From contig JAAXXL010000010.1 in NCBI GenBank assembly GCA_013334485.1, positions 1-54,727 on the forward strand: 54,727 nt of DNA. Direction: 5' to 3'. A program made the translations under genes and the position numbers. This document shows positions 5,769 to 54,506 of this stretch, in pieces (within the stretch, counting starts at the first letter, position 1; each line of letters starts with the position of its first letter). The notes under the pieces were generated by a model. The model worked only from the letters and a program-made list of their open reading frames with translations, searched no databases and was not told the DNA's origin. The stretch comes from Chlorobiaceae bacterium. Lineage in GTDB: Bacteria; Bacteroidota; Chlorobiia; Chlorobiales; Chlorobiaceae.

Positions 5769-5769
5769 A

Positions 5770-9025: not shown

Positions 9026-9066
9026 AAGTATTATCCAATTAATCTTTTACGTAATAGTCGTTCTTC

Positions 9067-10278: not shown

Positions 10279-10306
10279 GTTGAGTAATCACAAATATTGT
10301 TAATAG

Positions 10307-11500
10307 TTAAACAAGCTGACCTTCAAATACCGGCAGCAGTTCATCCTCAATCCGATAGATGTCATTGATCACACCTATTGGCGCTGCATTGCAGTCATAG
10401 ATCTCATCATAGGTAAAGCCATACTTGCGGTGTATAGCTGCAATCTTTTTGTAGAGATCAAAATGCCAGGCGGGTTCCGGTGAACGATGACCCTCAAGTG
10501 CTGAGCCTGGATTCGGATTCCAGCTCGTTGCAAAGCAGATCACTCCCTTTGAAGCGAGGTATTCTACTCCTTCCAGTGTTGAATCTTTCGGTTCAAGACC
10601 CGCAACGATATTTGAGCGAACCTTTCCTCTGCCGAACACTTCCACTTCGTATTCCAGAGCCTTCACCCAATGCTCCCAGCCGCCGCACTGCAGCTCCTTG
10701 CCGGGGCAAATTGCCTTGAAGATGTTACGGTCCCAGATCTCGATATTGGTCGCAATGGTGCGATAACCGGCCTCTTTGTACTTGTCGATGATGCTGAGGT
10801 CGTGTGGTGCTCCGACGCAGGCAGTACCATTGAAATCCTCAAGTCCGGTGTGCTCCTTGATGGCATCGGCAACATCGAGGTAGTACTCCACTTCGCGCCG
10901 CTCGGCAACAAATCCACCGGTTATTGTAACATGGCGCGCGCCATCCCTGTAAGCTGCACCTACGGTTTCACCAACCTGCTTCGGATACTTCCAGCCGATG
11001 CCTTCTATTTCGCCATAGGTGGCCTTCGTAGCATTGATGTTGCAGAATTTGCAATCGTGATCTTTTTCCTTGAGTGCGCACTCATTACTGTAGGCTACAA
11101 CCACAGCGCCTTCCTGAAGGTAGCTTGCTATGGTAGGCATGCTGGTACCGTCAGAAGTTTTCAAATTGTAATAGTTCGGCCGCTCAAGAAATTCAACTGG
11201 ATACAGTACCTCTCCATGGTGAGCCAGATAGTAGGTTCCACTTTCATAGATGAATGAATACGAAGATCGGCGATCCCACTTGAGGTAATTGATCAAACCG
11301 TGAGGGGAATAAAAACCGACAGGAAATTTTATACCCACATGAGTTTCATGTGCGAACTCCATACAGAAATGGATATCCTCCTGAAATCGTCCGCCGAGAT
11401 CGAGATGTTTAAAAATATGCGGATCAAAATTTATTCCCTCAACACCGGTTATAATTTTTAGTTCCAGCTCCCTGTACAATGTCTCTTTAATATTGCTCAT
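10307..11500 (-). CDS. radical SAM protein, CX8CX2C family, paralogue 3 (first gene of the downstream operon)
   Basis: This is a 397-residue paralogue with C141, C150 and C153. It is the first gene after the leader and attenuator-like terminator at 11635-11661, so it starts the transcript that ends with the flavin reductase at position 1. The ribosome-binding site is AAAGGGAGTGG, nearly the same as that of the PNPOx gene at 23927-24388. About 128 consecutive residues of its catalytic core, from GWKYPKQ to GRGKVRS, are identical to paralogue 6, although the DNA differs at many synonymous sites. The N-terminal 130 residues differ clearly between the two. Function unknown. Confidence 0.85.
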   Translation of the reverse strand: MSNIKETLYRELELKIITGVEGINFDPHIFKHLDLGGRFQEDIHFCMEFAHETHVGIKFPVGFYSPHGLINYLKWDRRSSYSFIYESGTYYLAHHGEVLYPVEFLERPNYYNLKTSDGTSMPTIASYLQEGAVVVAYSNECALKEKDHDCKFCNINATKATYGEIEGIGWKYPKQVGETVGAAYRDGARHVTITGGFVAERREVEYYLDVADAIKEHTGLEDFNGTACVGAPHDLSIIDKYKEAGYRTIATNIEIWDRNIFKAICPGKELQCGGWEHWVKALEYEVEVFGRGKVRSNIVAGLEPKDSTLEGVEYLASKGVICFATSWNPNPGSALEGHRSPEPAWHFDLYKKIAAIHRKYGFTYDEIYDCNAAPIGVINDIYRIEDELLPVFEGQLV

Positions 11501-11634
11501 ATCGCTCCACTCCCTTTTTGTGTTTTATAGTAATTATTAGCTTACTCTGTGTTATAAATCAGAAGGCTGCCAGTCAATATATCCCGTAAATAACCGCACT
11601 CAGTTACACCGGGAATGAGTAATGCATAAAAAAA

Positions 11635-11661
11635 GCCGATTCTCTGACTGTAAGAATCGAC
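11635..11661 (-). terminator. attenuator-like intrinsic terminator in the leader of radical-SAM paralogue 3
   Basis: On the minus strand a 9-bp stem (GTCGATTCT with AGAATCGGC, one mismatch) and a 9-nt loop are followed by seven U (plus-strand A run 11628-11634). It lies 135 bp upstream of the gene start and about 240 bp downstream of the dyad at 11900-11928. The upstream operon already has its own terminator at 11970-12007, so this one most likely sits inside the leader of the next transcript. An almost identical hairpin lies at 24449-24479. Upstream of it the arms ACTTGTT (11749-11743) and AACAAGT (11713-11707) can form another stem. Confidence 0.7.
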
Positions 11662-11899
11662 TCTTTATAATCTTTTTTTTCTTGGCAATGACTATATGAG
11701 GACAATACTTGTTATATCAGGATGCTCTTCTAAGCAATCAACAACAAGTAAAGTTTTTCATAGCAATAAACGGAGTAGTATTAAATTCCAGACTTAAAAT
11801 GAATACCGGGTATTTTCAGACCTCAATCCATAATCCGAAGTTATAAGGCATAATTTTATTATTTGTAAAGTCAACAATTAATAGTGATTTGCAAATCCC

Positions 11900-11928
11900 G
11901 TTTAAGAGGCATTTTATATACCATAAAC
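11900..11928 (-). promoter_or_regulatory. operator-like dyad, site A
   Basis: On the minus strand GTTTATGGTAT, six bases, then ATGCCTCTTAAAC form an imperfect inverted repeat. The same element occurs at 24666-24694 (closely similar) and at 17766-17794 (weaker), each upstream of a minus-strand operon. In sites A and B the element is followed by GGGATTTG. It is probably a transcription-factor site next to the promoter of the operon starting at 11500. No regulator gene is visible in the window. Confidence 0.6.
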
Positions 11929-11969
11929 AGGTCATCACAATAAAATCCTTTATTGCTTTTCCAAAACCT

Positions 11970-12007
11970 GAAGAGTTTATTGGAATGGCAGTACCAATAA
12001 ACTCTTC
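11970..12007 (-). terminator. terminator after radical-SAM paralogue 4
   Basis: A perfect 14-bp stem (GAAGAGTTTATTGG with CCAATAAACTCTTC) with a 10-nt loop starts 45 bp after the stop of the gene at 12052. On the minus strand it is followed by AGGTTTTGG, a short U tract. It closes the operon of PNPOx-like, MFS and paralogues 6, 5 and 4. A T7 run also follows on the plus strand, so it could act in both directions. Confidence 0.75.
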
Positions 12008-12051
12008 AAGAGTGATCAGGTTTTTTTCTTTCTGATAATTACCCTGCTCTG

Positions 12052-13245
12052 TCAGGCTACTTTTGCTTGAAATACCGGCAGTCGTTCTTCTTCAATCCGG
12101 TAGATATCATGTGCAATACTTGTTGGCGCAGCATAGCAATCATAAAGCTCATCATAGGTAAAGCCATACTTTCTGTAAATAGCTACTGCTTTTTTGTAGA
12201 GATCAATATGCCATGCCGGCTCAGGCGAACGATGTCCAGCCAAAGCTGACCCCGGGTTCGGGCACCAGCTTGAAGCAAAGCATATTACCCCTTTTGACGC
12301 GAGATACTCAATACCCTCAAGAGTAGAATCTTTTGGCTCAATACCGGCAACGATATTTGAGCGAACCTTTCCTCTCCCGAAAACCTCAACTTCATACTCC
12401 AGAGCCTTAACCCAATGCTCCCAGCCACCGCACTGCAGCTCCTTGCCGGGGCAGATGGCCTTGAAGATATTCCTGTCCCAAATCTCAATGTTGGTAGCAA
12501 TAGTGCGATAGCCGGCCTCCTTGTACTTGTCGATGATGCTGAGGTCGTGAGGAGCACCGACACATGCCGTGCCGTTGAAATCCTCAAGCCCGGTGTACTC
12601 CCGGATTGCATCAGCAACGTCAAGGTAGTATTCAACTTCCCTGCGCTCAGCGACAAAGCCTCCTGTTATGGTAATGTGATGAGCGCCTTCTCTGTATGCT
12701 TCAGCAACGGTCTCACCAACCTGTTTCGGATTTTTCCAGCCAAGGCCTTCAGCCTCCGCATAGGTATCTTTCGTTGCATTGATATTGCAGAACTTGCAGT
12801 CATGATCTTTTTCCTTAAGGGCACACTCATTACTGTAGCAAACCGTTAACGCCCCATACTGACCGAAGCGTACAAGATTGGACATGCTTGTCCCATCCGA
12901 AGTTTTCTTGCCGTAATAGTTCGGGCGCTCAAGAAATTCAACAGGAAACAGGCGCTCACCGTGATGAGCAAGATAGAAACTCCCATTGTCATTAATCAGG
13001 GAATAGGTGGACCGGCGATCCCACCGTAGAGCGTATACCAAACCGTGGGGTGAACGAAAACCGGTAGGAAACTTGATACCAACATGAGTTTCATAGGCCA
13101 TCTCAAAACCGGAGTGTATCTCCTCCTGATAAAGTCCGCCGAGATCAAGCTGCTTGAAAATATGCGGATCGAAGTTGATACCCTCCACTCCGGTGATGAT
13201 TTTCAGTTCCAGTTCCTTGTACAAGGTCTCTTTAATATTGCTCAT
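12052..13245 (-). CDS. radical SAM protein, CX8CX2C family, paralogue 4
   Basis: This is a 397-residue paralogue with the CX8CX2C motif at C141, C150 and C153 and the C-terminal YDCYA Cys. An extra Cys appears in SSWCPNPGSALAGHR, where the others read WNPNPGSALEGHR. The stretch around CPGKELQCGGWEHW through GRGKVRSN equals paralogues 3 and 6. It is the last gene of the upstream operon, 32 bp after paralogue 5, and is followed by the terminator at 11970-12007. The N-terminal region (HIFKQLDLGGLYQEE) is distinct, consistent with a different substrate or protein partner. Function unknown. Confidence 0.85.
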   Translation of the reverse strand: MSNIKETLYKELELKIITGVEGINFDPHIFKQLDLGGLYQEEIHSGFEMAYETHVGIKFPTGFRSPHGLVYALRWDRRSTYSLINDNGSFYLAHHGERLFPVEFLERPNYYGKKTSDGTSMSNLVRFGQYGALTVCYSNECALKEKDHDCKFCNINATKDTYAEAEGLGWKNPKQVGETVAEAYREGAHHITITGGFVAERREVEYYLDVADAIREYTGLEDFNGTACVGAPHDLSIIDKYKEAGYRTIATNIEIWDRNIFKAICPGKELQCGGWEHWVKALEYEVEVFGRGKVRSNIVAGIEPKDSTLEGIEYLASKGVICFASSWCPNPGSALAGHRSPEPAWHIDLYKKAVAIYRKYGFTYDELYDCYAAPTSIAHDIYRIEEERLPVFQAKVA

Positions 13246-13277
13246 ATATAAATTTGCGATTAATGGTTAATGGTTCA

Positions 13278-14477
13278 TCATGCAACAAGACTTTTGAAAA
13301 CCGGTAGCGTTTCATCCTCAATCCGGTAAAGATCACTGATGATCCCCGTTGCTCCGGAGCAGTCATAGAGTTCCTCATATGTAAACCCGTACTTTCTATG
13401 GATTGCGAAGATCTTCTTGAACAGATCAAAATACCATGCCGGCTCAGGTGCACGATGTCCCTCCAGAGCAGAGCCGGGGTTTGGATTCCAGACTGTAGCA
13501 AGAGCGATAACACCCCTGGAAGCAAGGTATTCGATGCCTTCAAGAGTTGAGTCCTTGGGTTCAATTCCAGCCACAAGGTTTGAACGAACCCTGCCGTGAC
13601 CAAAAACCTTAACTTCATGATCGAGAACCTTCAGCCAGTGATCCCAACCTCCGCACTGTTGCTCCTTGCCTGGGCAGATGGCCTTGAAGATGTTTTTATC
13701 CCAGATTTCGATATTGCTTGCAATCGTTCGGTAGCCGGCCTCTTTGTACTTCTCAATGACACTGAGATCCAGTGGTGCGCCAATTGCCGCAAGGCCGTTA
13801 AAATCCTCAAGCCCTGTATGCTCCTTGATGGAATCGGCAACATCGAGGTAGTACTCGACCTCTCTGCGTTCCGCAACAAATCCGCCGGTCAGGTTTACAC
13901 GACGAGCCCCTTCACTGAACTCCCTGTATGCAGCGGCAACAGTTTCGCCAACCTGCTTCGGAGTTTTCCACCCGATACCTTCTATCTCTCCGTACGTATC
14001 CTTTGTTGCATTGATGTTGCAGAATTTGCAGTCCTGACCTTTCTCTTTCAATGCACATTCGTTACTGTAAGAGATCAAAACTGAACCCTCCTGAACATAT
14101 GGTGCTATTGTGGACATGGGGGTACCGTCAGAGGTTTTCAGCCTGTAATAGTCCGGGCGCTCAACAAATTCAACGGCAAACAGTACTTCACCATGATGAG
14201 CCAGATAGTAACTGCCTTTGTCATGAATGAGCGAGTAAGATGACCTGCGATCCCATCTCAGGTTGAATATCAATCCATGAGGAGAACGAAAAGAGGAAGG
14301 AAACTTGATCCCTGCATGAGTTTCATAGGCCATCTCGAAAAGACAGAGTACCTCCTCCTGATAGCGCCCCCCAAGATCAAGATCTCTGAAAATAAGGGGA
14401 TCAAAGCTGATACCTTCATCATTGGTTGAAATTTTCAACTCCAGTTCCTGGTATAATATTTCCTTTAGTGTGCTCAT
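13278..14477 (-). CDS. radical SAM protein, CX8CX2C family, paralogue 5
   Basis: This is a 399-residue paralogue with the cluster motif in SNEC and CKFCNINAT. It carries a two-residue insertion between the cluster and the TGG motif (REFSEGARRV) and changes in otherwise fixed places: FNGLAAIGAPLDLSVIEKY instead of FNGTA-IGAPHDLSIIDKY, and VIALATVWNPN instead of VICFATSWNPN. The C-terminal Cys is kept (YDCSGATG). It lies 22 bp after paralogue 6 and 32 bp before paralogue 4. These core changes make it, with paralogue 2, the likeliest to have a different substrate. Function unknown. Confidence 0.84.
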   Translation of the reverse strand: MSTLKEILYQELELKISTNDEGISFDPLIFRDLDLGGRYQEEVLCLFEMAYETHAGIKFPSSFRSPHGLIFNLRWDRRSSYSLIHDKGSYYLAHHGEVLFAVEFVERPDYYRLKTSDGTPMSTIAPYVQEGSVLISYSNECALKEKGQDCKFCNINATKDTYGEIEGIGWKTPKQVGETVAAAYREFSEGARRVNLTGGFVAERREVEYYLDVADSIKEHTGLEDFNGLAAIGAPLDLSVIEKYKEAGYRTIASNIEIWDKNIFKAICPGKEQQCGGWDHWLKVLDHEVKVFGHGRVRSNLVAGIEPKDSTLEGIEYLASRGVIALATVWNPNPGSALEGHRAPEPAWYFDLFKKIFAIHRKYGFTYEELYDCSGATGIISDLYRIEDETLPVFKSLVA

Positions 14478-14499
14478 GTTCTATTTCTTTAGTGGTTTT

Positions 14500-15693
14500 T
14501 CAAGCAACCTTTGCCTTGAAAACAGGCAGCGTCTCTTCTTCTATCCGATAAATATCATGGCATATGCCTGTCGGAACAGCCGAGCAATCGTAAAGTTCTT
14601 CATAGGTAAATCCATACTTTCTGTATATGGCCGTAGTTTTCTTGTGAAGATCAATATGCCAGGCCGGTTCGGGTGAACGATGTCCTTCCAGTGCTGATCC
14701 GGGATTCGGATTCCAGCTTGATGCCAAACATATCACACCCTTTGAGGCGAGGTATTCAATCCCCTCAAGAGTAGAATCCTTTGGTTCAATTCCTGCAACA
14801 ATAACCGAACGGACTTTCCCTCTGCCAAAAACCTCCACCTCATACTCCAGCGCCTTCACCCAATGCTCCCAGCCGCCGCACTGAAGCTCTTTTCCGGGGC
14901 AGATTGCCTTGAAAATATTCCGGTCCCAGATTTCGATATTGGTGGCTATAGTGCGATACCCTGCCTCTTTATACTTGTCAATGATGCTGAGGTCGTGAGG
15001 CGCTCCGACACACGCTGTACCGTTGAAATCCTCCAGTCCAGTGTGTTCTTTGATTGCATCGGCTACATCGAGGTAGTACTCCACTTCACGCCGTTCAGCG
15101 ACGAAACCACCCGTGATCGTTACATGACGAGCTCCATCCCTGTAAGCCGCACCGACGGTTTCACCTACCTGCTTGGGATATTTCCATCCCACGCCTTCTG
15201 CTTCTCCATAAGCTGCCTTCGTCGCATTGATGTTGCAGAACTTGCAGTCATGATCCTTTTCCTTGAGGGCACACTCATTGCTGTAGGCAACTGCAAGGGC
15301 TCCCTCCTGGGCATAACCCGCAATAACGTTCATACTTGAACCGTCTGTAGTTTTCAGCCCGTAATAGTTAGGACGATCAAGAAATTCAACCGGAAATAAA
15401 AACTCTCCATGATGAGCCAGATAGTAAACCCCTTTTTCTAAAATGAAGGAGTAAGGTGATCTGCGATCCCAGCGAAGGTTAAATATCAAACCGTGGGGAG
15501 AACGAAAACCTGCTGGAAACAGAATGCCCACATGAGTCTCATAGGCCATCTCGAAACAGAGGTGATGAACCTCCTGATACCGGCCCCCGAGATCAAGAGG
15601 CTTGAAAATGTGAGGATCGAAACTGATGCCCTCAACATTGGTGGCAATTTTGAGTTCCAGCTCCCTGTACAACGCATCTTTAATATTGCTCAT
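14500..15693 (-). CDS. radical SAM protein, CX8CX2C family, paralogue 6
   Basis: This is a 397-residue paralogue with C141, C150, C153 and the C-terminal YDCSA. Its catalytic core is identical to paralogue 3 over about 128 residues, with many silent DNA differences, so the match reflects constraint more than very recent duplication. LHKK replaces the usual LYKK. The gene follows the MFS transporter at 15745-16968 by 51 bp and precedes paralogue 5 by 22 bp. Substrate unknown. Confidence 0.85.
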   Translation of the reverse strand: MSNIKDALYRELELKIATNVEGISFDPHIFKPLDLGGRYQEVHHLCFEMAYETHVGILFPAGFRSPHGLIFNLRWDRRSPYSFILEKGVYYLAHHGEFLFPVEFLDRPNYYGLKTTDGSSMNVIAGYAQEGALAVAYSNECALKEKDHDCKFCNINATKAAYGEAEGVGWKYPKQVGETVGAAYRDGARHVTITGGFVAERREVEYYLDVADAIKEHTGLEDFNGTACVGAPHDLSIIDKYKEAGYRTIATNIEIWDRNIFKAICPGKELQCGGWEHWVKALEYEVEVFGRGKVRSVIVAGIEPKDSTLEGIEYLASKGVICLASSWNPNPGSALEGHRSPEPAWHIDLHKKTTAIYRKYGFTYEELYDCSAVPTGICHDIYRIEEETLPVFKAKVA

Positions 15694-33214: not shown

Positions 33215-36200
33215 TTATATGAACGAGCGTTTTATGTGATCGACATATTGAAAGTATGACTTCTGACAAGCCGCAATAAATTTATCAAAGAAGAGACCCC
33301 AGTTGACATTTATGACATCATAAAGTATCAAAAGAGCAAAAAAGAGCAGCAGGGCAAAAATGCCGACAACAATTCGGAATAACCATACAATCCGCCGATT
33401 TGCTGTTATTTTATGAATATTTGTTTCAAGAAGCCGCCTGACCATCAAGGTAATGATATCAACAATCAATAAGGCTGAACCAACATATTTCAATACTGAG
33501 TTGGTATCATATTCTTTTAAAACAAAGCCTAACCCTATTGTAACTATTGACACCACCATCAAAAGCTGTAACCAGTACCCCGCAAGAACCCCGATCATAG
33601 TCTTCGGAGTAGAAAAATCAAGCATTCCCAACAAAATCCAGTTCAGTTTTTTCAGATAACTACTGAGTTTCCCTCCTACTCCTTTTCCTGCATCAAGCCG
33701 ATCTATCATGGAGGAGAGAATTCCTGTTCCCCTGCCAAGAAGTTTGAGGGTTGATTCCGGTTCGAGTTCCCTGTTAAAATCATAAACGTTCATAAAGCGC
33801 CTCTTCCACTCTGGATCACCACTTTTGTGCTGCTCTTTACCAGTGGAAGCAAAAGCCTCCAGAATATGTTGAAGTCTCCTGTATTGTATATCGTCTGATT
33901 GCGATGTGAATCGTTTGGGATCAAGCTCCTCAATCCATGTTTCAAGGGTTTCTTTCAAAATGATTTTCTGGGCACCAAGAATAAACTCTTCTCTTTTTAT
34001 TGCGCGGTCACTATTTTTTTCGCTCTCTGCGTCACTTGATGAGGGTATTTCGTCCGGCAGAAGTGCAGTAATTATTGTTTCAGCAGCATCAAGCCGCCCC
34101 CACATGATGTCATTTCTGCGCCAATTCCGGTCAAGAAATCCTCCGAATGCTCCAAGTGAATCTCCTGCAAGCTTTGACTTCTTTCTCTTCGTCTCATCCC
34201 AGAGACTGAGTGCATCAGGTGGACTGATCCGAAAAATGTCAACAACATTTCCCTCACCATAATCACCACTGGCAAGAAGCTGATAGGTTGTTGCGTCATA
34301 GAGATCATATCCGTAATCATATATAAATCGTAACCTGCCTGCAATCTCGGGAAAAGTTTTCGCGAGTAGAACAAATGCACTCGAGAGCTGATCGCTGGCG
34401 TGGACTGTACCGTCAGAATGATTGTTCCCCTTACCTGCAATAAAATCACCCAGAACTCTCATCAACGCATCAATGGATGAGTTAAAAGTGGCCGAATGGC
34501 TACTACAACTGCGGTTCTGCCAAAGAAAGTTTTTTATTGTTGCTCGTAACTGATCACTACCCTGCGGAGCTGCTGATAAAGGGTGTTGAATGCTCTCCAA
34601 CGCCATTGTTTCGAGCGCATTATAGAGAGGGCTCTGCTGTCCAAAAGAGAGTAGCCGCTCTCTGAGCCGATAGTACGACTCAATACTCGAACAAACTGTA
34701 CGATAAAATTTATGTATATCAGAAACAAAAACACTACACCACTTTTCATCACGTTTGGCAGTATCGAGCACTGAATTCATTATTCCGAAATAAAGGTGAA
34801 CCACTTTATTTTCAGAGAGTGCTTTTTCAAGCATTTTCCGGATATAACTCAGCCTGCGAATTCTGAAATCGATATCAAATTCGCGAAAAAACATATTTTC
34901 CGTATCCATTGCCGCTGAATCCGGAATATCTTCTTGAACTGAGGTATAGTGCTTTGTTCTCCACTCCTTAAGATTTTCTCGAATATTATCAAATACCTCT
35001 GAATCTTCATCGACCATTCCCGCTCTTGCAAGCATCAATGCGAGCTGGTCAGTCAAGAGATTCAATCTGGTATAGTGATATGCAGGATAGGCTCCACCAA
35101 AAGCCTTTAACATAGTGTTGAAATCTTTCCTCTGAACTTCACTTTCGTTCTTTACTTGTTGGGGTTGGGCCATTTGTGTCCAGAACCTTTTATATACCCG
35201 ATCTTCAGGCGTGGTAGCTTCCTGAAATGCCCGCCACTCCGATTCAGGAATATCAATCCTGAATACCGAAAAAAGTTTCTCCGTTACATTTTCATCAACA
35301 GAAAAAGCAACGTTGTCTTTAAATTCATTAAACTCATGATCAATTATATGCGTCTTGAGATGTTCCTGATTATGAGTGAGCAATTTGGTCTCAAGGATAT
35401 GACGTACCTTTAAAATCCAGTCATTTCTTTTTTTCAACCCACTGATCTCTTCACGGATGGTTTCATAGCGCGGCAAAGTAAGCGCCAGCATGCTGTTTTT
35501 CAAAACTGAGATCTCCTGCTTGCCCTCACGGCCATCATTTGACTCTGGAGAGGGATCTATAAAGAGGAGCTTCCTCTCAATCGGACAATCAGCCTGACGT
35601 GCGTGGATTGCATCTATGGCATGACCAAATGGGCGATTGTCAAGATATCCTCCATCAGCAAAAGCTCTCTCTTCAAGCAAAAGAGTGTTGTCACTTTTAT
35701 TATATTTTTGAAAAAAAGCAGTTTGCCAGTTTGCCTTGAGGGATTTGATGGTTTCTGTAACCTTTACCGGCTCAAATGCCGGAGGAATAGAAGAGGTACA
35801 TCGGGCAGCAAAGGCAAGCATTGGATCGAAGTCACCGGTAAAATCACTCTGTTCGGGGTTTTCAGGTGATTGCTCCTTGCGATATCTGAATGGAAATACA
35901 TGCTTGAATATGTGCTCATAGGCTTTTCCGGCACTTAACTGGACAGGCCTCTGCAACCCAAGCAGGTCAGTGGCTGTGACAAAAAGATCCATGGACTTGA
36001 CATAAGGCTCTTTTTTTGCCCCCATTTCCATATCCTTGAACGCTTTGAGTAATTTCGCATACATCCTCTGACTGTTAAACAGGGAACTCTTTGGCTCTTT
36101 GGAAGGGAACTCCCAAAGTTTTGATCCGGAGTCGTTAAGCAAATAATTGATATCCCCTTCCTCAAGCCAGACATTCTCCAGGACTTTCAAGTCATCGAGA

Positions 36201-36550
36201 CCGCGAACAAGCCCTTTTGCAAGACAGATCCCGTTAATGCCGCCGGCTGAAGTACCAGAAATAATATCGACAACAAACTTATGAGGAAAGGCCGGAGTCT
36301 CATCTTCAGACGACAAATAATCAGCAATCGCCCTATAAACCGATGAGGTATCTTTCTTTTCAGAATCCGGGGGATTATCGCAATTCTTAAAATTAATTGC
36401 TGTTGATTTGACAAGACTCAGCAGTTCCTGGGCGATACCATTCATATAGATGGCAAGTGATATGCCTCCGTACATTACAACGGCAAATCGTATCTCTTTG
36501 TAAATTATTTTGTTGTCGTCTGCTGTATTTTTTGATGGCGGAGGATTCAT
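33215..36550 (-). CDS. large patatin-like phospholipase with C-terminal membrane segments
   Basis: This is a 1111-residue patatin-related protein. The N-terminal lipase part has the oxyanion motif VMYGGISLAIYMNG, the nucleophile Ser in ISGTSAGGINGI (GXSXG), and the dyad Asp in FADGGYLDNRPFG, so the Ser-Asp catalytic pair is complete. A long middle region of about 600 residues is mostly helical and charged and matches no domain I know. Near the C-terminus are three or four hydrophobic segments (AGYWLQLLMVVSIVTIGLG, VGSALLIVDIITLMV and VWLFRIVVGIFALLLFFALL). This fits a membrane-anchored acyl hydrolase. Together with the membrane protein just downstream it could act on membrane lipids, perhaps in defence or remodelling. 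Function is inferred from the fold only. Confidence 0.88.
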   Translation of the reverse strand: MNPPPSKNTADDNKIIYKEIRFAVVMYGGISLAIYMNGIAQELLSLVKSTAINFKNCDNPPDSEKKDTSSVYRAIADYLSSEDETPAFPHKFVVDIISGTSAGGINGICLAKGLVRGLDDLKVLENVWLEEGDINYLLNDSGSKLWEFPSKEPKSSLFNSQRMYAKLLKAFKDMEMGAKKEPYVKSMDLFVTATDLLGLQRPVQLSAGKAYEHIFKHVFPFRYRKEQSPENPEQSDFTGDFDPMLAFAARCTSSIPPAFEPVKVTETIKSLKANWQTAFFQKYNKSDNTLLLEERAFADGGYLDNRPFGHAIDAIHARQADCPIERKLLFIDPSPESNDGREGKQEISVLKNSMLALTLPRYETIREEISGLKKRNDWILKVRHILETKLLTHNQEHLKTHIIDHEFNEFKDNVAFSVDENVTEKLFSVFRIDIPESEWRAFQEATTPEDRVYKRFWTQMAQPQQVKNESEVQRKDFNTMLKAFGGAYPAYHYTRLNLLTDQLALMLARAGMVDEDSEVFDNIRENLKEWRTKHYTSVQEDIPDSAAMDTENMFFREFDIDFRIRRLSYIRKMLEKALSENKVVHLYFGIMNSVLDTAKRDEKWCSVFVSDIHKFYRTVCSSIESYYRLRERLLSFGQQSPLYNALETMALESIQHPLSAAPQGSDQLRATIKNFLWQNRSCSSHSATFNSSIDALMRVLGDFIAGKGNNHSDGTVHASDQLSSAFVLLAKTFPEIAGRLRFIYDYGYDLYDATTYQLLASGDYGEGNVVDIFRISPPDALSLWDETKRKKSKLAGDSLGAFGGFLDRNWRRNDIMWGRLDAAETIITALLPDEIPSSSDAESEKNSDRAIKREEFILGAQKIILKETLETWIEELDPKRFTSQSDDIQYRRLQHILEAFASTGKEQHKSGDPEWKRRFMNVYDFNRELEPESTLKLLGRGTGILSSMIDRLDAGKGVGGKLSSYLKKLNWILLGMLDFSTPKTMIGVLAGYWLQLLMVVSIVTIGLGFVLKEYDTNSVLKYVGSALLIVDIITLMVRRLLETNIHKITANRRIVWLFRIVVGIFALLLFFALLILYDVINVNWGLFFDKFIAACQKSYFQYVDHIKRSFI

Positions 36551-46460: not shown

Positions 46461-47663
46461 TTGGAGCAAAACACCTATAACAAATGCCCGGTCTGTAGTT
46501 ATCCGCTTAATCTGCAAAGTGCGGTATGCCCTCGATGCGGAAATGATATACTTGAAGACATAAGCTCACTTGACGAGCAATCCCAGGAGCTGCACCGTCA
46601 CCATATAGAGAATAAAAAAGCGGAATGGTATACCCGATGCCTGACCGAAAAACTGAACTGTAGCCCGAACCATCCGCCAGGCCCTCCGGTTGAAGAAGCT
46701 CCAAAAGTGAGTGGACGACACACCTATTGCCAGTCTGATGAAATAGAATACCTTGGAACCATCACCAGAACAGAACTGCTCAAGGAGAGCACTTCCCGAA
46801 AAAAATGGTGGAACACCATGACTGATGACTGGAAAGAGGTGATCAAAACAACCCTGAAGGTTGTTCGTGAACCCTCTGATCAGGAGCTGCTTGATTTTCT
46901 TGAAACCACACACCTGCGCTGTGACAACCGGAGAATTCATGACCTGCTTCCCGTCAGAATGCTTGAAAAGCTTCAGCAGCTCCGCTGTGATGAGTCCCCT
47001 GTTGCGAATCTTGAACCGCTTGCTCATCTCCAAAAGCTTCAGCGCCTTTACGCATTCGACTGCGATTTCTCATCGCTTGAGCCCCTGCGCAACCTGACAA
47101 GCCTCAAACTGCTCTGGATATCAAGCACACAGGTCACAACTCTTGAGCCGATCAGCACTCTTGTCAACCTTGAAGAACTCTACTGCTCCGAAACAGAGAT
47201 CAACGATCTCGCACCACTAAAAAGGCTCTTCAACCTTGAAAAACTGAGCTGTTACAAAACCGGTATCTCTTCGCTTACCGCGCTTGAGCATCTTGAAAAT
47301 CTTGTCGAACTGGGTATCAACAGCTCCTACGTTACCGATCTTTCGCCGCTCAGCGGACTCAGCAACCTTGAGTATCTCCGCTGCAACAAAACAGCCATCG
47401 AAAATATCGAGCCGCTGCGTTCACTTGCCGGACTTCGTGAGCTGAGCATAGCCAACACCCATGTGATGACCATTGAAGCGCTTGAGGAGCTGACCTACCT
47501 TGAAGAGCTTGACATCTCAAACACGCACGTCTCATCAATCAACCCCCTGATGCAGCTTCAGAACCTTGAAAAAGTAGAGCTTTCGCCGGGCAACATTCCC
47601 CGTGAAGAGCTCGAACGCTTCATTGAACTCCACCCCGAGTGCGAAGTGATTCTCAGAAAGTAG
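46461..47663 (+). CDS. leucine-rich repeat protein with N-terminal zinc ribbon
   Basis: This protein of about 400 residues starts with a four-Cys ribbon (CPVCSYPLN then CPRCGND) and a charged linker. It then has about nine 21-22-residue leucine-rich repeats of the type SLEPLRNLTSLKLLWISSTQV, given here in one example; these form a curved solenoid for protein binding. No signal peptide or membrane segment, so it is cytosolic. The frame is open from a TTG at 46377. I chose the TTG at 46461, which begins eight residues before the first Cys; TATAAT at 46454-46459 just upstream resembles a -10 box, so the start stays uncertain. The terminator-like hairpin at 47676-47710 follows. Confidence 0.78.
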   Translation: MEQNTYNKCPVCSYPLNLQSAVCPRCGNDILEDISSLDEQSQELHRHHIENKKAEWYTRCLTEKLNCSPNHPPGPPVEEAPKVSGRHTYCQSDEIEYLGTITRTELLKESTSRKKWWNTMTDDWKEVIKTTLKVVREPSDQELLDFLETTHLRCDNRRIHDLLPVRMLEKLQQLRCDESPVANLEPLAHLQKLQRLYAFDCDFSSLEPLRNLTSLKLLWISSTQVTTLEPISTLVNLEELYCSETEINDLAPLKRLFNLEKLSCYKTGISSLTALEHLENLVELGINSSYVTDLSPLSGLSNLEYLRCNKTAIENIEPLRSLAGLRELSIANTHVMTIEALEELTYLEELDISNTHVSSINPLMQLQNLEKVELSPGNIPREELERFIELHPECEVILRK

Positions 47664-47675
47664 CTTTCGCATACC

Positions 47676-47710
47676 AACAGAAAACGCGCCTCATCAGCGC
47701 GTTTTCTGTT
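47676..47710. terminator. terminator-like hairpin after the leucine-rich repeat gene
   Basis: A perfect 14-bp stem (AACAGAAAACGCGC with GCGCGTTTTCTGTT) with a 7-nt loop lies 13 bp after the stop at 47663 and 68 bp after the convergent radical-SAM gene's stop. The T-rich part is inside the stem. It probably serves both directions. Confidence 0.75.
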
Positions 47711-47777
47711 TATGATTGATAAAAATCTCATTCGGAGGGACGAAATACCGCATGGCACTATTATACCCTTGCTTCGC

Positions 47778-49637
47778 TTAAGATGTCTGATTTTCCGCTT
47801 TAAATCCCTGTATGCAAAGAATACCTCTGACGTAAAGATAGAGCAGAAATGATTTCATCAGTTGAAAAGTAGCTTGATCGTAAAACTGCAATGCCCTGGA
47901 AAGCTCTTTCAGTGTAGATCCGGAGCTTAGTAGATGCATCATATCCGACTGAATCGCATCAAGCACAAACTCCATGTCATGGTCTTTCAGAAGAATTACT
48001 CCATCTGCAAGATTTTGTTGCAGAACAACGTGTTCTGCAACCATAAAACAAAAGGTATCATCATCAACAATCGCCCGCAAGCTCTCAGCCTGCTTTCTGT
48101 ACTGCGAATCATGCAAACGCCATGGCCCTTTTTTGTTAGAAAAACTTGAGACAATGTAGCGGTGCCATGCTCTGTCAAATTTATGGTTGGGAACCCGCCA
48201 TTGCTTTGTAATTGCTTCGGTATAAAATCCATACGCTCTCCAAGGAGCATTAATCGGCTCAATAATAATACCATACTTCCAGGGATTCATGTACAGATCA
48301 GTTGATGGTTCCAGGCGGAAACTATTGCCCAGACTTCGTTGGGGAAAATGAGCTGTCGGAACGCCATCACGGGTAAGAATTTCATCAATTTCCCTGAAAA
48401 ACCTTATGGAATCAAGAACATCAACGATCTCTTCGCCAGGAAAATTGACGATGGTCGATACATGTACAGGCAACCCATTCTTTGCTGCGGCAAGAAGATT
48501 GCTTTGTGCATGATTAAGGTCAATAGTTTTATTCATGCATTCAAGAACCCTTGGCGAAGCGCTTTCCAGACCGAAAGCTATTCTACTGAACCCGGCTTTG
48601 GACATTTTTTCAAGCAGATCCGGGGTCAGATGTGTAAGGTCACAAAAGGCAAAGGTAAATAACGGCTGGAGATCCTCAGTGATAATCCTTTCGCAGAAAT
48701 CAGAAAGCCATGCATGGCTGAAATTAACAAGACTATCGCAGATATAAAACGATGAAATTCCGTATGATTCCATATAAAAGCGAAGCCGCCCGACGGCCTG
48801 CTCTACAGAAAGGTAGCGGAAACATTTCCAAAACTCTTTTTCTGAACAATAGATGCAGCTATTGACACAACCTCTTGAAAAAGAAACCGGAATACCCTCA
48901 AACCGACGTTTCAAATACTCCCGAATACCCTGACCTTTGAAAGGGAAATTTTTAAAATCAGGCATCGGAAACTCATCAGCCCGTAGCAATTCTTTTCGTG
49001 GAATATAGTGGTAGTGATCACCATCAAGATATGCCACCCCATCAACATGACCATCATCTGAACGCAGAAATTCCTTTGCAGAAAGTTCTCCTTCACCGAC
49101 TATTATTGCATCAGCAAAACGATTGAAAAGGAGAAAAAGGTGAACGTCTCTTGTATAAACGGCAGGCCCGCCAAAAACAAGAGATGCAGAAGAACGCAGA
49201 CGAATTTTTTTTGCCGCAAGTAACGAAATCCAAATATTGCTGATGTATGAGGACACCCAGATCTGGTTAGGCGATTCGGCAAGCATTACCGAAACAGCCC
49301 GGTCAAGAAAAGAGTCAATTTTCTCAAGATTCAGCCTCATTTCCGCATCGGAAAGCAACAACGAATCTAACTCGGAACGATCAAAAAGCACCGGAAACAT
49401 AATTTCGGGAGAAGCTCCAATAAAGTTAATCATATCAGGAAAGCTGCCATAACGAGAATGCAGAGCCAAATCATGAATCGCATAATAGAGATCTCTGTCT
49501 TCAACGCTAAGCTGGTAGTCAAAATCAAAAACCGCAACATCGCATTGTTCCCTGTCAAGTACAGTTTTCATGCAAGCCAGACCAAGTGGTAATGTCTTGT
49601 CTGAAAAAGAGGGGAAAATGGTCAACGCAATGTCCAT
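47778..49637 (-). CDS. radical SAM protein with B12-binding-like N-terminal domain (RiPP maturase candidate)
   Basis: This 619-residue protein has a Rossmann-like N-terminal domain (residues 1-190; LVFGGPAVYTRDV and ADAIIVGEGELSAKEFL) as in cobalamin-binding radical-SAM enzymes, although the DXHXXG cobalamin His motif is not seen. The cluster motif CVNSCIYC (C257, C261, C264) is canonical CX3CX2C, and IAFGLESASPRVLECMNK is typical of this class. A helical C-terminal extension of about 200 residues follows. Relatives in RiPP clusters methylate or crosslink peptides. It begins 11 bp after the YcaO gene and is the last gene of the cluster. The exact reaction is unknown. Confidence 0.85.
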   Translation of the reverse strand: MDIALTIFPSFSDKTLPLGLACMKTVLDREQCDVAVFDFDYQLSVEDRDLYYAIHDLALHSRYGSFPDMINFIGASPEIMFPVLFDRSELDSLLLSDAEMRLNLEKIDSFLDRAVSVMLAESPNQIWVSSYISNIWISLLAAKKIRLRSSASLVFGGPAVYTRDVHLFLLFNRFADAIIVGEGELSAKEFLRSDDGHVDGVAYLDGDHYHYIPRKELLRADEFPMPDFKNFPFKGQGIREYLKRRFEGIPVSFSRGCVNSCIYCSEKEFWKCFRYLSVEQAVGRLRFYMESYGISSFYICDSLVNFSHAWLSDFCERIITEDLQPLFTFAFCDLTHLTPDLLEKMSKAGFSRIAFGLESASPRVLECMNKTIDLNHAQSNLLAAAKNGLPVHVSTIVNFPGEEIVDVLDSIRFFREIDEILTRDGVPTAHFPQRSLGNSFRLEPSTDLYMNPWKYGIIIEPINAPWRAYGFYTEAITKQWRVPNHKFDRAWHRYIVSSFSNKKGPWRLHDSQYRKQAESLRAIVDDDTFCFMVAEHVVLQQNLADGVILLKDHDMEFVLDAIQSDMMHLLSSGSTLKELSRALQFYDQATFQLMKSFLLYLYVRGILCIQGFKAENQTS

Positions 49638-49648
49638 TGAGGTACTGA

Positions 49649-51511
49649 TTACATTATCGACGCGACAGAAAATACATGAACAAGATTTTCCTGATCCGGC
49701 TGGTGATCTTTATAAAAAGAGTGGAGTTTTTTTACATACTGGAGCATAACAACAAAAGAGCACGATGTGCAAGGAGGTTTATTATCAGGGAAATCATGAT
49801 TTTCAAAAACCTCCTGTATCATCAGCATTGGATCATTAATGAAAAGCATTGCCTGTTCTACTACCTCGCTCCTATAAAACCTGAGTAACTGACTGGAAAG
49901 AGCCGAGGTAGGACATTCATCTGCGATGAGTTGGTGGTAGTCAATTACACAATGGGCAAACAGCGCCAGAGTGCTGTTCGATGCCGTACGGGCAGCAAGA
50001 AAAAGTTGTTGCAGAACTTCGTCCGCAAAGGCGGTGTGACCGAATAGTTGACTGATTGCCGCCAGAAGTATGCTTTCCCTAATCTTCCTTGAGCCCGGAT
50101 AGTTCCAGCAGGAAAATGTTGAGAGAAATGACGCAGGAGCAGGAAGAGCAGTCTCGCCTGTTTTTTTGTACAAAGCAAGGATCTGCTGCATAATGACAGA
50201 TGTGCGATTGATGCTTTTGTTAAGTTTTCCGCTCGCCTCCTTGAGTGTAAGGATATCGATAAGTTCATTTTTTCCTGAACAGTAGTTCACATTGCTCATA
50301 CCAGGAATGTAACCGTATACTGAAGGGATTCCGAGGTAGGAAACATCACGGAGATAAAGTTTTTTTCCTGTTCTCCTGAGCAAATCAAGTAATTCCCGCA
50401 GCGGATTTGAGGCGAGGTTTTTATTCCAAACCTTTTCACTTTCTTGCTCCCAGGAAGCGGTTGTACCAAAAAGTGATTTAGGCCACAATCCAGTGCTGTT
50501 GGCCTTGGCAGTATAGTAGTTACTGTATCGAAAAAAACTCGCTAAATCTGGAGTATCGGCTTGGTAAGGATTTCGGTATCCTGAAATCGGCAGCCCGTAA
50601 AAGTCATCATTTCCATCATAGAGTTCTGTCAAGGCCTGGATTACTGAGGTGGAAAGCGTTTCTGCTGCTCCAAGATTGCAGTTGTATAAATTCCTGTCAC
50701 GATTGATCAGCATGACTCCTGCAACGGGAAACCCTTCTCCGAATGAACAGTCAAGAAGACGCACTACGGTCTTATGTTTAGATTCAATTTCTTGGATAAC
50801 TTTTTCCGCTTCAGTGCCTTCAAGCCGGGTAAGCGGAATTTCTGGTGGTGTGAGGTCTTCAGAAAAGAGCTGGCGAAAAACATATCGCTCACAGATTTCG
50901 AAAATTGACTTCTGCACAGCATGAGCAAGGCTATAACCAGCCGCGCATCCTGTGCTTCCGCTACTAAAAAGCATCAGCTCCATAGGGCAGTAACCGATTT
51001 CACCATGATGGACAGAGTAAAATGGTGTACAGAGAAGAGAAGATAGATACTCTTTGAAAACATCACCATAACCATCATCGTCAACCAGATGATGAGGCAA
51101 CAGCGTTACAAGCTCTATAAACGGAGTAGCGGTAAGCACATCCAGCGACTGAAAGCGCTCATCAGGCGCAAGATAAAACTCAGGTTGAGCGCCGGCAATC
51201 TGCATTCTTGAAAGACAGTGATCAGGCATGTCGGTATGGTTCTTTCTGCCCTGTAATGCATGGTGATGGCCGGTAAAAAGAAAGTTGTTCTGGAGGCGTT
51301 CAAAGAGTTCTCCGTAGGCACTTACCATAGATCCTCTTCGGGTTAAGCCTTTTCCCGAGAGAGAAATGTTCAGAAAGGAAAGTTCTGGATTGCTGATAGT
51401 GAGCGTGGTTGAGAAAAACGGAAGTGAGGCTGCTGCTCTGTTCGTTTCCGTTATTGCAAAACCAAAAGTTTGCAGGATACTTTTCATCTTTTCAAGATCA
51501 TCAGAAACCAT
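49649..51511 (-). CDS. YcaO-domain protein (peptide backbone cyclodehydratase/thioamidase candidate)
   Basis: This is a 620-residue protein. ATP-binding YcaO motifs are GKGLTRRGSMVSAYGELFER (residues 53-72) and GCAAGYSLAHAVQKSIFEIC with ERY (187-209), matching the conserved Gly/Ala/Glu/Arg pattern. The last roughly 200 residues are helical and not part of the core YcaO fold. YcaO enzymes use ATP to turn Cys, Ser or Thr of a peptide into azolines, or to make thioamides or amidines. No ThiF/Ocin-ThiF or TfuA partner is encoded nearby, so the mode of substrate binding is unusual. It sits between two radical-SAM genes, with gaps of 41 and 11 bp. Confidence 0.85.
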   Translation of the reverse strand: MVSDDLEKMKSILQTFGFAITETNRAAASLPFFSTTLTISNPELSFLNISLSGKGLTRRGSMVSAYGELFERLQNNFLFTGHHHALQGRKNHTDMPDHCLSRMQIAGAQPEFYLAPDERFQSLDVLTATPFIELVTLLPHHLVDDDGYGDVFKEYLSSLLCTPFYSVHHGEIGYCPMELMLFSSGSTGCAAGYSLAHAVQKSIFEICERYVFRQLFSEDLTPPEIPLTRLEGTEAEKVIQEIESKHKTVVRLLDCSFGEGFPVAGVMLINRDRNLYNCNLGAAETLSTSVIQALTELYDGNDDFYGLPISGYRNPYQADTPDLASFFRYSNYYTAKANSTGLWPKSLFGTTASWEQESEKVWNKNLASNPLRELLDLLRRTGKKLYLRDVSYLGIPSVYGYIPGMSNVNYCSGKNELIDILTLKEASGKLNKSINRTSVIMQQILALYKKTGETALPAPASFLSTFSCWNYPGSRKIRESILLAAISQLFGHTAFADEVLQQLFLAARTASNSTLALFAHCVIDYHQLIADECPTSALSSQLLRFYRSEVVEQAMLFINDPMLMIQEVFENHDFPDNKPPCTSCSFVVMLQYVKKLHSFYKDHQPDQENLVHVFSVASIM

Positions 51512-51552
51512 ATCCGTTACATGTGATTTTAGTACCTGATGAACAATTCCAA

Positions 51553-52815
51553 CTAAAAAAAGGAGAGTACCGATGACATATCTTCATGCAGAATTGCAAA
51601 CAATCCAAAAATCATCTTCCTGCGATATGAGCAATAGATCTTTGAATATTCACTGAATGTTTTACTGAGCTTACCGTAATGATAACCAGGAATGGTTGTC
51701 GGACAGAATGAAAGGCATATGGAAGATATCGGACACGCTGCACATATTCCATAGCGCTCTTTTGTCTGTTGTTTCCGTACAAGGTCATTTTCTCCTCTCA
51801 GGTGTGCACACCATTCAAGCGTACCATCACTATTTATGCACTTGTAGTTGCCATTGGAACCGCAAAAAGGTGTCTGTGTGCATCCATCATTATATACCGA
51901 AGGGTAAAGCATTTTACCAAGAAATGTCAGGAGCATCTGCTCCCTGACAAGTTCTCCTCGTGTTTTGTGCAGATGGATAATCTCCCTTAGCAGATTGAGT
52001 TGCCCATCGGCAAGACGCGCGTAGTAATCCGAAAAATCGTCTCTCCTGTAAATATCGAAATCGATAAATTCAAGCGGTTTAAGATAAAAGGATCGAAGCT
52101 TCAGTACTTCATGGTTGAACCTGAACAGCTCCATAAGTGTGTCCGGCTCCCTGATTACCGAAAGCACTCCATAGCAGATTTTCCTATCCTGAAACAATTG
52201 CAGATGCTCAAGAATAGTGCTGAAACTTCCGTTCCCGTTTTTAAAAGGACGAGAACGATCATGGAGCTGCTGTTCACCATCAATTGTAACTCCAACTGTC
52301 ATATTATAATTCGACAGTAGATGAAGCACCTCATCATTGACAACCGTTCCGTTTGACTGGAGAGAAAATGAAAAGAGTATATCTGGATAAGTCCCTGTAA
52401 GAAAAGCACATATCCGTTCCAAGTCACGATGGCACAGAAGCGGCTCACCGCCCTGAAAAGTCACAGCAACTCGTCTCTTGTTGAAAACCAGCTTGCTGAG
52501 AGTATGCAGTATTACTTCGATTTCAGTTTTTTGGGTAAAGTGTGTTTGTGTTAATTCGGCATACTTGCAATAAACACAAGCCAAATTACAATTGTCGGTA
52601 ATGAAAATAACAATTTCGATGTAATCATCAGCTCGGGCATCATGTGCACCATGGCACTGAAGCTGTTTTATCGCTTCAGTTTTCTTTTCCGGGCTGAACT
52701 CCTCGCTGACTATTTTCCAGTTACCGTATCGGTTATCAAGTGCCACAAAAAAAGCCCCCTCCTCTCCTGCTATGAAGGTGAAAGGACTCTCTATATCAAG
52801 GGAATAACTACCCAT
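51553..52815 (-). CDS. radical SAM/SPASM protein (RiPP maturase candidate)
   Basis: This 420-residue protein has the cluster motif CNLACVYC (C76, C80, C83), the SAM-binding TFQGGEPLL, and a C-terminal SPASM domain with cysteines in CTQTPFCGSNGNYKC, GTLEWCAHL and YGICAACPISSICLSFCP, which should hold auxiliary Fe-S clusters. This is the layout of anSME-like and peptide-modifying maturases (sactipeptide, ranthipeptide and similar types). It lies downstream of the precursor gene and its terminator, so its expression depends on read-through or on its own promoter. No strong ribosome-binding site is seen. The modification is unknown. Confidence 0.88.
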   Translation of the reverse strand: MGSYSLDIESPFTFIAGEEGAFFVALDNRYGNWKIVSEEFSPEKKTEAIKQLQCHGAHDARADDYIEIVIFITDNCNLACVYCKYAELTQTHFTQKTEIEVILHTLSKLVFNKRRVAVTFQGGEPLLCHRDLERICAFLTGTYPDILFSFSLQSNGTVVNDEVLHLLSNYNMTVGVTIDGEQQLHDRSRPFKNGNGSFSTILEHLQLFQDRKICYGVLSVIREPDTLMELFRFNHEVLKLRSFYLKPLEFIDFDIYRRDDFSDYYARLADGQLNLLREIIHLHKTRGELVREQMLLTFLGKMLYPSVYNDGCTQTPFCGSNGNYKCINSDGTLEWCAHLRGENDLVRKQQTKERYGICAACPISSICLSFCPTTIPGYHYGKLSKTFSEYSKIYCSYRRKMIFGLFAILHEDMSSVLSFF

Positions 52816-52855
52816 AAAGACAAAAATGTAAATCGACAGAAAGCAGACAAAAAAA

Positions 52856-52896
52856 GTGACTAACCCTGTTTTACATCAAAACACAAGGTTAATCAC
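52856..52896 (-). terminator. strong terminator/attenuator just downstream of the precursor peptide gene
   Basis: On the minus strand GTGATTAACCTTGTGTTTT and AAAACAGGGTTAGTCAC pair almost fully around a 5-nt loop and are followed by seven U (plus-strand A7 at 52849-52855). It begins 45 bp after the precursor stop codon and ends 41 bp before the radical-SAM/SPASM start. It should give more precursor than maturase mRNA. Confidence 0.88.
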
Positions 52897-52940
52897 TAAA
52901 AGGAAACTACAAGGTCGCACACCGCAATGCACCCGGACAA

Positions 52941-53168
52941 TTACTTATCATTTGGATCCCACGTATCGCAATGCATACTGGGAAGCCTGCTTGATAAAGA
53001 GAGTGAAAAGTTATCATTCACTGCCAAACATGGCCTTTCTTTAGGCGGATTTGGATCCGGTGAAGGCTCTGGAGTCCATGTATCGCAGTGCATGGAGGGC
53101 ATTTTTGTACCTGACTTCAATGTCAAATTGTCGACCGAAAACAAGGAGCTGCAAAAATTTTTGTTCAT
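52941..53168 (-). CDS. RiPP precursor peptide with two PSMHCDTW repeats
   Basis: This is a 75-residue peptide, start ATG at 53168 (a GTG at 53204 would add 12 residues). PSMHCDTW occurs at residues 24-31 and 63-70. The segments before each repeat also resemble each other (NKNFCSSLFS and NDNFSLSLSS), and so do those after (DPNPPKE and DPNDK), so the peptide is an internal duplication. Within the eight repeated codons every DNA difference is silent, including AGT versus TCC for Ser. It has four Cys (6, 28, 47, 67). It lies between a glycosyltransferase and the radical-SAM/SPASM, YcaO and second radical-SAM genes, on the same strand, and ends in a terminator. The two repeats are the likely core or modification sites. 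No homologue is known to me. Confidence 0.72.
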   Translation of the reverse strand: MNKNFCSSLFSVDNLTLKSGTKMPSMHCDTWTPEPSPDPNPPKERPCLAVNDNFSLSLSSRLPSMHCDTWDPNDK

Positions 53169-53279
53169 GATCTGGCCATTTAAATGGATGAAAAGATATT
53201 TCACTCATAAAAGCATGGGGAAAAATTTACGAAAAAGCATGATCAAAGAAAAGCAAACCAGTAAAAAAATCTTTACCGT

Positions 53280-54287
53280 TCATCTAAAACCACCAAGAAA
53301 AGATGGCAGCATAGATTTCAGATACCAAAGATAACCCGCAAGAATCTGGTAGTCGGAATTCATACCGTTATCAATCCTGTACTGATAACTCTCTTTCTTG
53401 CCGGCAAGAAATATTGCCATTTCCGAAACCATTGAACCACCACAAACCAGTGCTTCCGCTTTTGAAAGCAGCAAAGCATCAATAAGAATATCCCTTCCTA
53501 AAAGATATCGATGAAAAGGACGTGGAGACTCCAGATAACTGTTCTTATTTGATCTGTAACTGTCAAAACAGACAAGATTATCAAGATTTTTCTCCAAAAA
53601 CCTCAAATAATCAAGACTTTCTGTCGAAACAAATACTCTTGTATAGCCATTCAGCGCAACCAATTCATTAATTTTTCCCAGCATCTGTTTTTTTGTCGGG
53701 GGAAACGGATGACGCGCGGCGGTTCTCATCTCCTGTCCACGAAAATGAACACCCAAAACCTTTTCATTGCAAAAATAATCTTTGACATAACTGTCGCATA
53801 GTGCTGTTATCTCCGGTTTGATGCGAATGTATTTTTCGAAAATATCGATCAATTCAGAATCTTCGGTAATGTATTTTGGCATAACGGATAAATACCAGAA
53901 CCCGTCACTTACCGCAATATTTCTTGACGAATAGACCTCTTCCAGAGTATAGGGGGATACTTGATCAAAATAATATTCCCATGCATTTTCTGTCCCGTTG
54001 ATTGCATCCTTTTCATTGTATAACGTAGGGAAACACTTGAAATCGACAACTGGTATCATTCCAAGACGTTCGGCAATTTTAAGATGATGCAGCACATAGG
54101 TGAAATTCGCAAAAAAACCGGTACCAGGCGATCGCTGAATCACATAAAAATACTGATCAGGATTACTGCTCCCCCCTTTTAGCAGGTGATACTTCGGAGT
54201 TTTACGGACGTTGCAGGCAAATTCAGCATTTGCCTTGGCTGGCAATGGAGTTTTACCTGAAATAATATTTTTCACTCTACTCGTCAT
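53280..54287 (-). CDS. fucosyltransferase-like (NodZ/O-fucosyltransferase fold) glycosyltransferase
   Basis: This 335-residue protein shows the GDP-fucose-type GT-B pattern: GVHFRGQEMRTAARH (the HXR motif that binds the donor), TRVFVSTESLDYLRFLEK, and ALVCGGSMVSEMAIFLAGK near the end. There is no signal peptide or membrane segment. It is the first gene of the putative RiPP operon, 111 bp before the precursor. It could glycosylate the modified peptide, or be a neighbour from a surface-sugar locus. The DNA upstream (54288-54506) is AT-rich, carries no gene that I can see, and should hold the operon promoter. Confidence 0.72.
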   Translation of the reverse strand: MTSRVKNIISGKTPLPAKANAEFACNVRKTPKYHLLKGGSSNPDQYFYVIQRSPGTGFFANFTYVLHHLKIAERLGMIPVVDFKCFPTLYNEKDAINGTENAWEYYFDQVSPYTLEEVYSSRNIAVSDGFWYLSVMPKYITEDSELIDIFEKYIRIKPEITALCDSYVKDYFCNEKVLGVHFRGQEMRTAARHPFPPTKKQMLGKINELVALNGYTRVFVSTESLDYLRFLEKNLDNLVCFDSYRSNKNSYLESPRPFHRYLLGRDILIDALLLSKAEALVCGGSMVSEMAIFLAGKKESYQYRIDNGMNSDYQILAGYLWYLKSMLPSFLGGFR

Positions 54288-54506
54288 GAAATTTTTTTGA
54301 TCTCGCCAAAAATGTATTCAACAATAGCGCCCCGTATGCCAATAATAAAAGAGTGAAAACAATCTGCGAATAAGACTTACTAACATCACTCATTCGGAAA
54401 GATACCGATAAGTAACAGCCATAAAAAGATGTTGCTTTGCTTTCGCATACACTTCTGAATGAAACTCAGCCACTGCTCATCCAAATAGATTCACTTCCAG
54501 TCTTGA

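Follow-up and report, generated by a model that had tools for sequence, protein, structure and literature searches.

The run of five genes at positions 47778–54287 of the window (the whole stretch of DNA analyzed, 54,727 nucleotides) raises the question of whether a small repeat-containing peptide is the substrate of the enzymes encoded beside it. Based on the list of open reading frames and their translations, all five genes are on the minus strand. In the reading direction, they encode a NodZ/fucosyltransferase-like glycosyltransferase (53280–54287; 335 aa), a putative precursor peptide (52941–53168; 75 aa from the ATG), a radical SAM/SPASM peptide maturase (51553–52815; 420 aa), a stand-alone YcaO protein (49649–51511; 620 aa), and a B12-type radical SAM enzyme that is a putative peptide C-methyltransferase (47778–49637; 619 aa). 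An earlier sequence-only reading had called the same five open reading frames, and each one was found where it had been placed, on the same strand. The intergenic gaps are 41 nt between the SPASM and YcaO genes and 11 nt between the YcaO and B12-type genes, which suggests that these three genes are co-transcribed. The precursor gene is spaced by about 125 nt on its downstream side and 111 nt on its upstream side.

For the distribution of these genes, when 394 genomes of the phylum were searched with the YcaO protein, only five, all from the sister genus Chlorobaculum, contained a full-length relative. The precursor, SPASM, YcaO, and B12-type genes occur in identical order in all six genomes, which belong to two genera. 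Relative to the five Chlorobaculum strains, the window enzymes have amino acid sequence identities of 52–54% (SPASM), 49–51% (B12-type), and 39–42% (YcaO). Among 86 Chlorobiaceae genomes, a precursor profile and a B12-enzyme profile matched these same six genomes and no others; the small open reading frame was kept with the enzymes in 6/6 genomes and was never found apart from them. Precursor homologues beside related YcaO/radical SAM genes, whose absence the sequence-only reading had named as one refuting outcome, are thus present in five other genomes. A small precursor with a leader and core beside peptide-modifying enzymes, all conserved jointly, is the general hallmark of ribosomally synthesized and post-translationally modified peptides (RiPPs). 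The occurrence is patchy, with the gene set present in one of 65 Chlorobium genomes (the window strain being counted as Chlorobium by kinship, as we infer) and in five of 21 Chlorobaculum genomes. Within a limited search outside the Chlorobiaceae, relatives of the cassette were found in this family only. A genome-wide scan with the SPASM alignment and two peptide patterns found a YcaO gene nearby only at three Chlorobaculum/Chlorobiaceae contigs. In searches run without a positive control, no relative of the B12-type enzyme turned up among 345 genomes from a single other phylum, and none of the YcaO protein in three draws of approximately 200–250 genomes, the first of which overlaps the phylum of the B12-type search. 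A plasmid search with the YcaO protein returned ordinary YcaO proteins only (24–27%), and no relatives were found in viral contigs.

Comparison with genomes that lack the genes sets the limits of this unit. The five genes of the window lie in an inserted cassette of about 6.8 kb (47663–54450) that sister Chlorobium genomes lack. In two of these, G007 and G015 (loci L166 and L167), the sequences corresponding to window positions 47662 and 54503 adjoin, with about 20 nt between them, and the leucine-rich repeat (LRR) gene that ends at 47662 is kept at the empty site. A 12-bp direct repeat (GCTTTCGCATAC) has its left copy directly after the stop of the LRR gene (47663–47674, plus strand) and its right copy, a perfect match, at 54439–54450 (plus strand). 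These are the only two copies in the whole window, and none would be expected in shuffled sequences. The repeat may be a target-site duplication or the footprint of an attachment site. No recombinase was found inside the window insert. In Chlorobaculum, the insertion point of the cassette has a cytochrome c gene on one side and an SDR gene on the other, and the flanks of the operon are direct neighbors in G160 and three other genomes; for example, positions 7468 and 13069 of L024 (cassette present) correspond to 9798 and 9850 of L134 (cassette absent). No direct repeats of at least 9 bp were found at the Chlorobaculum boundaries. These empty sites show that the operon occupies unrelated places in Chlorobium and Chlorobaculum. 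Because they delimit the cassette cleanly, to four genes in Chlorobaculum and five in the window, they also exclude further dedicated genes; within these limits, there is no TfuA, azoline partner, transporter, protease, or regulator. The GC content of the cassette genes is 0.40–0.44, compared with 0.474 for window positions 1–43000. Horizontal acquisition of the gene set as a mobile cassette of green sulfur bacteria is the best reading of these patterns.

The peptide gene has several properties expected of a precursor with multiple cores. Each of the six homologues has 2–4 copies of SMHCDT(W/Y), and among the 18 copies in total, 17 read SMHCDTW and one reads SMHCDTY; the other codon changes are synonymous. 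The window precursor has a putative leader (residues 1–24; 53097–53168, minus strand) that was defined by alignment with the Chlorobaculum leaders (FDSxTLxLxPxxM), followed by core copy 1 (residues 25–31; 53076–53096) and core copy 2 (residues 64–70; 52959–52979), both on the minus strand. The two copies of PSMHCDTW, the motif quoted in the sequence-only reading, are real. Their cores are encoded by TCC ATG CAC TGC GAT ACA TGG and AGT ATG CAT TGC GAT ACG TGG, and since these differ at synonymous sites only, the repeat is one at the protein level. Among the three closest precursors, dN is 0.01–0.02 and dS is 0.09–0.17, a difference of roughly tenfold. These comparisons of coding sequences place the core under purifying selection. 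In the alignment of the six precursors, the cores come after the leader (e.g., MNTPTFDSSTLALSPETMP), and the peptides have little in common beyond this short leader and the core copies. The core units of Chlorobaculum resemble ISMHCDTWxPDxPSxRTGK. The start-codon context GATCATGAA is identical in all six homologues, which supports the 75-aa start. Searches against Pfam and NCBIfam gave no usable match for the precursor, as the match to PssL depends on four residues of the window protein. A search with the single precursor sequence among 100 relatives returned only itself and chance matches. A tandem leader-core duplication inside the window precursor was also considered. The similarity between the two segments that precede the cores is suggestive only (shuffle p = 0.011), and the comparison with Chlorobaculum leaders gave no support for such an event.

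Another feature of the locus is a hairpin between the precursor and SPASM genes, with a stem of 10–17 bp in 6/6 loci. In the window (52855–52897, minus strand), it consists of 15 bp followed by seven U, as in hairpins of the attenuator/processing type, and the stem sequence is unrelated to those of Chlorobaculum. Compared with shuffled sequences, the hairpin is strong in two loci (z = −3.4 in the window and −4.5 in L024), moderate in three, and not significant at L026 (z = −1.0). No RNA family was found in a search for one. We interpret this hairpin as a putative attenuator or processing site that would hold the precursor mRNA in excess.

The two radical SAM proteins of the cassette match the Pfam Radical_SAM model with E-values of 2.6e-18 (B12-type) and 6.6e-13 (SPASM), and for both of them the closest curated model is a RiPP maturase. 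For the SPASM protein, the CX3CX2C motif (C76-C80-C83) is invariant in all six homologues, and the seven-cysteine SPASM motif (C-x9-15-G-x4-C … C-x2-C-x5-C-x3-C … C) is complete in each of them. The best NCBIfam model is PapB (NF047865), with a score of 106 bits over residues 68–342 that is well below the family cut-off of 340. The next models (YhhB, CcpM, and geopeptide maturases) are all far under their cut-offs, and several of the next-best models (YhhB, GrrM/OscB) represent cyclophane formers. Foldseek comparison of an AlphaFold model of modest confidence (mean pLDDT 61.0) matched CteB, anSME, ChlB, and SuiB. PapB forms bonds between Cys sulfur and Asp Cβ and accepts Cys-Xn-Asp with n = 0–6 (PMC9413430). 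The SMHCDTW core carries an invariant Cys-Asp (n = 0) within His-Cys-Asp, such that the likeness to PapB extends from the best NCBIfam model to the type of substrate. However, the PapB precursor has six CX3D motifs, whereas the cassette has SMHCDTW repeats and also encodes a YcaO protein and a B12-type radical SAM enzyme.

The YcaO protein belongs to the YcaO superfamily (PF02624, 2.6e-38), with invariant Glu/Arg motifs for ATP binding (GE.FER and E.CER). A profile search against solved structures returned EcYcaO (4Q84) as the best match (8e-25) and one other structure weakly. EcYcaO thioamidates Met82 of uL16 when given ATP, Mg2+, and sulfide, without a partner protein (2026, PMC13063428). 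Similar to EcYcaO, the cassette protein has an extra C-terminal region of about 200 residues past the YcaO domain, and it has no TfuA or RRE partner. A tetratricopeptide domain of 150 residues has been described for EcYcaO (PMC13063428), and the AlphaFold model of the cassette protein (mean pLDDT 44.5) is too poor for comparison with this domain. The differences from EcYcaO are that the gene of the cassette YcaO is linked to that of a small precursor with repeats, that the protein scores 92 bits against the EcYcaO/uL16-type model NF040716 with its cut-off of 700, and that it is less acidic. With pI values of 5.17–5.60, compared with about 4.4 for EcYcaO, the cassette YcaOs fall outside the acidic proteins delimited in PMC13063428, and the position of EcYcaO Glu191 is occupied by His or Gln. 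Non-acidic EcYcaO-like proteins have been found in RiPP contexts, and among the YcaOs that form thioamides, some originate in habitats rich in sulfide, whereas the remainder mostly rely on TfuA and a sulfur carrier (PMC13063428). Given the pI of 5.2–5.6, hosts that are sulfide-oxidizing phototrophs, and the lack of TfuA, thioamidation is our first choice for the reaction and azoline formation the second.

For the B12-type enzyme, CX3CX2C (C257xxxC261xxC264) is likewise invariant in 6/6 homologues. Its best NCBIfam model is the RiPP radical SAM C-methyltransferase TIGR03975, at 90.4 bits and thus below the cut-off of 281.85; ApyD (NF050148) gives 70 bits (cut-off 750). TIGR03975 and ApyD are the nearest families, with a match that spans residues 98–409 only, and many other B12-dependent radical SAM models also match. 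From these family matches, the enzyme may bind cobalamin; the Pfam match for the B12-binding domain, which precedes the radical SAM core at the N-terminus of cobalamin-dependent (class B) enzymes, is weak (0.23). The window also contains other radical SAM genes. Nitrogenase-like genes occur at 3160–15693 together with six radical SAM genes, as well as SDR and MFS genes. The nitrogenase-like genes include a NifH-like gene (7205–8083) and two component-1-like genes (4419–5936 and 5770–7260). One of the radical SAM genes (3160–4356) matches model NF045502, and the other five are tandem copies with 66–84% identity (9067–15693). In a separate part of the window (33215–36550), a 1111-aa protein combines patatin-like phospholipase and DUF3376 domains.

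The glycosyltransferase differs from the other components in its distribution. Its gene falls within the window insert, and no homologue was found in the five Chlorobaculum loci or in 149 other genomes searched. The sequence-only reading had counted this fucosyltransferase-like gene among the constitutive parts of the cluster, and that view is not upheld; absence from the loci of the five relatives marks it as accessory and specific to the window strain. It has no match in Pfam or NCBIfam. The resemblance to NodZ-type fucosyltransferases comes from weak similarity to a Leisingera protein annotated as NodZ (23% identity over 70% of the length, tblastn 4e-5), and this low identity and the lack of a profile match set it apart from them. 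It is thus a candidate only for this type, which is defined by a fucosyltransferase fold and GDP-fucose specificity.

Taken together, these findings make it highly probable, as a whole, that this mobile cassette of green sulfur bacteria encodes a RiPP with multiple identical cores. The gene content and order, their conservation, the repeated cores, the cassette limits, and the intact catalytic cysteines are established from the sequences; the individual reactions and the role of the peptide are inferred. In the proposed pathway, the ribosome would make a leader and 2–4 SMHCDTW cores, joined by linkers that are Pro/acidic or contain Lys/Arg, and all three enzymes would act on each core. The stand-alone YcaO would activate a backbone amide with ATP, most likely giving a thioamide (+15.98 Da), with a thiazoline at the core Cys (−18.01) as the less likely outcome. 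The SPASM enzyme would cross-link residues within the core, most likely Cys sulfur to Asp Cβ or His/Trp to Asp through a C-C bond (−2.02 Da), and the B12-type enzyme would C-methylate a core residue (+14.02 Da). Since the cassette has no exporter or protease, the modified cores may act within the cell, where a metal- or redox-binding site formed by Met/His/Cys/Asp is a plausible role, or may be freed by housekeeping systems. The added glycosyltransferase may decorate the product in the window strain. Taken singly, thioamidation, cross-linking, and C-methylation are each close to an even call, some of them a little below it, and with scores so far below the cut-offs, the reaction types may differ from those of the named families.

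Among the alternatives, one retains the RiPP cassette and changes its chemistry. The YcaO would make a thiazoline or azole at the core Cys, as in TOMM pathways, and the SPASM enzyme would form a His/Trp cyclophane. The invariant core Cys, the presence of cyclophane formers (YhhB, GrrM/OscB) among the next-best SPASM models, and an H-C-D sequence that suits aromatic-X-X spacing agree with this possibility. However, the cassette limits contain no E1-like/ocin-ThiF partner or dehydrogenase, and the YcaO lacks a PxPxP motif and scores 44 against the SagD-type model with its cut-off of 219, such that this chemistry appears rather unlikely. The function may also differ from that of an intracellular peptide. 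Multiple cores are common among bacteriocin-type RiPPs, and together with the patchy presence and cassette-like gain or loss, they would fit a secreted bacteriocin-like peptide directed against related green sulfur bacteria. As the cassette of neither genus has a transporter, an immunity gene, or a protease, we hold this explanation to be doubtful. Alternatively, the substrate of the enzymes may be a protein of the cell, for example uL16, with the small open reading frame being a carrier, a regulator, or a chance frame. EcYcaO, the closest solved relative of the YcaO, does act on uL16 (PMC13063428), but the conservation of the small frame with the enzymes in 6/6 genomes, the purifying selection on its core, the low score against NF040716, and the absence of the genes from most sister strains make this highly improbable.

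The comparison with known RiPP classes is also informative. The combination of a YcaO and a B12-type radical SAM enzyme recalls bottromycin, as the sequence-only reading had pointed out. The bottromycin product derives from the N-terminal part of BtmD after loss of a follower, and its cluster encodes two YcaOs together with radical SAM methyltransferases (PMC5103208). In contrast, the cassette has repeated cores after a leader, one YcaO, one B12-type enzyme, and an extra SPASM enzyme. The likeness is thus superficial, and a bottromycin-type cluster is very hard to reconcile with the locus. TfuA-dependent thioamide RiPPs require an adjacent TfuA, which the cassette lacks. The placement of a RiPP-type cluster outside any curated class agrees with these results, as every enzyme scores far below the cut-offs and no model covers the precursor. 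Calling it a new RiPP class concerns its chemistry, which is predicted. The strongest form of that proposal is a class confined to green sulfur bacteria in which sulfide-driven, partner-free YcaO thioamidation, SPASM cross-linking, and B12-dependent C-methylation all fall on one invariant Met-His-Cys-Asp-Trp heptapeptide present in 2–4 copies, yielding an intracellular metal- or redox-binding peptide and no antibiotic; we regard this full combination as unlikely.

In the literature searched, no paper joins YcaO, radical SAM, and Chlorobaculum/Chlorobi, and a search for green sulfur bacteria with YcaO gave a single match, a coral microbiome paper; the cluster may figure in Supporting Data Set 3 of PMC13063428. 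As far as this literature shows, the mobile cassette of these green sulfur bacteria would represent a RiPP family that has not been described before. With four genes, limits set by natural empty sites, and a near-invariant core of seven residues, it offers three potential stacked modifications that can be read on one peptide. The cassette also bears on whether EcYcaO-like stand-alone YcaOs thioamidate peptides besides uL16, and on whether sulfide-rich organisms can do without TfuA.
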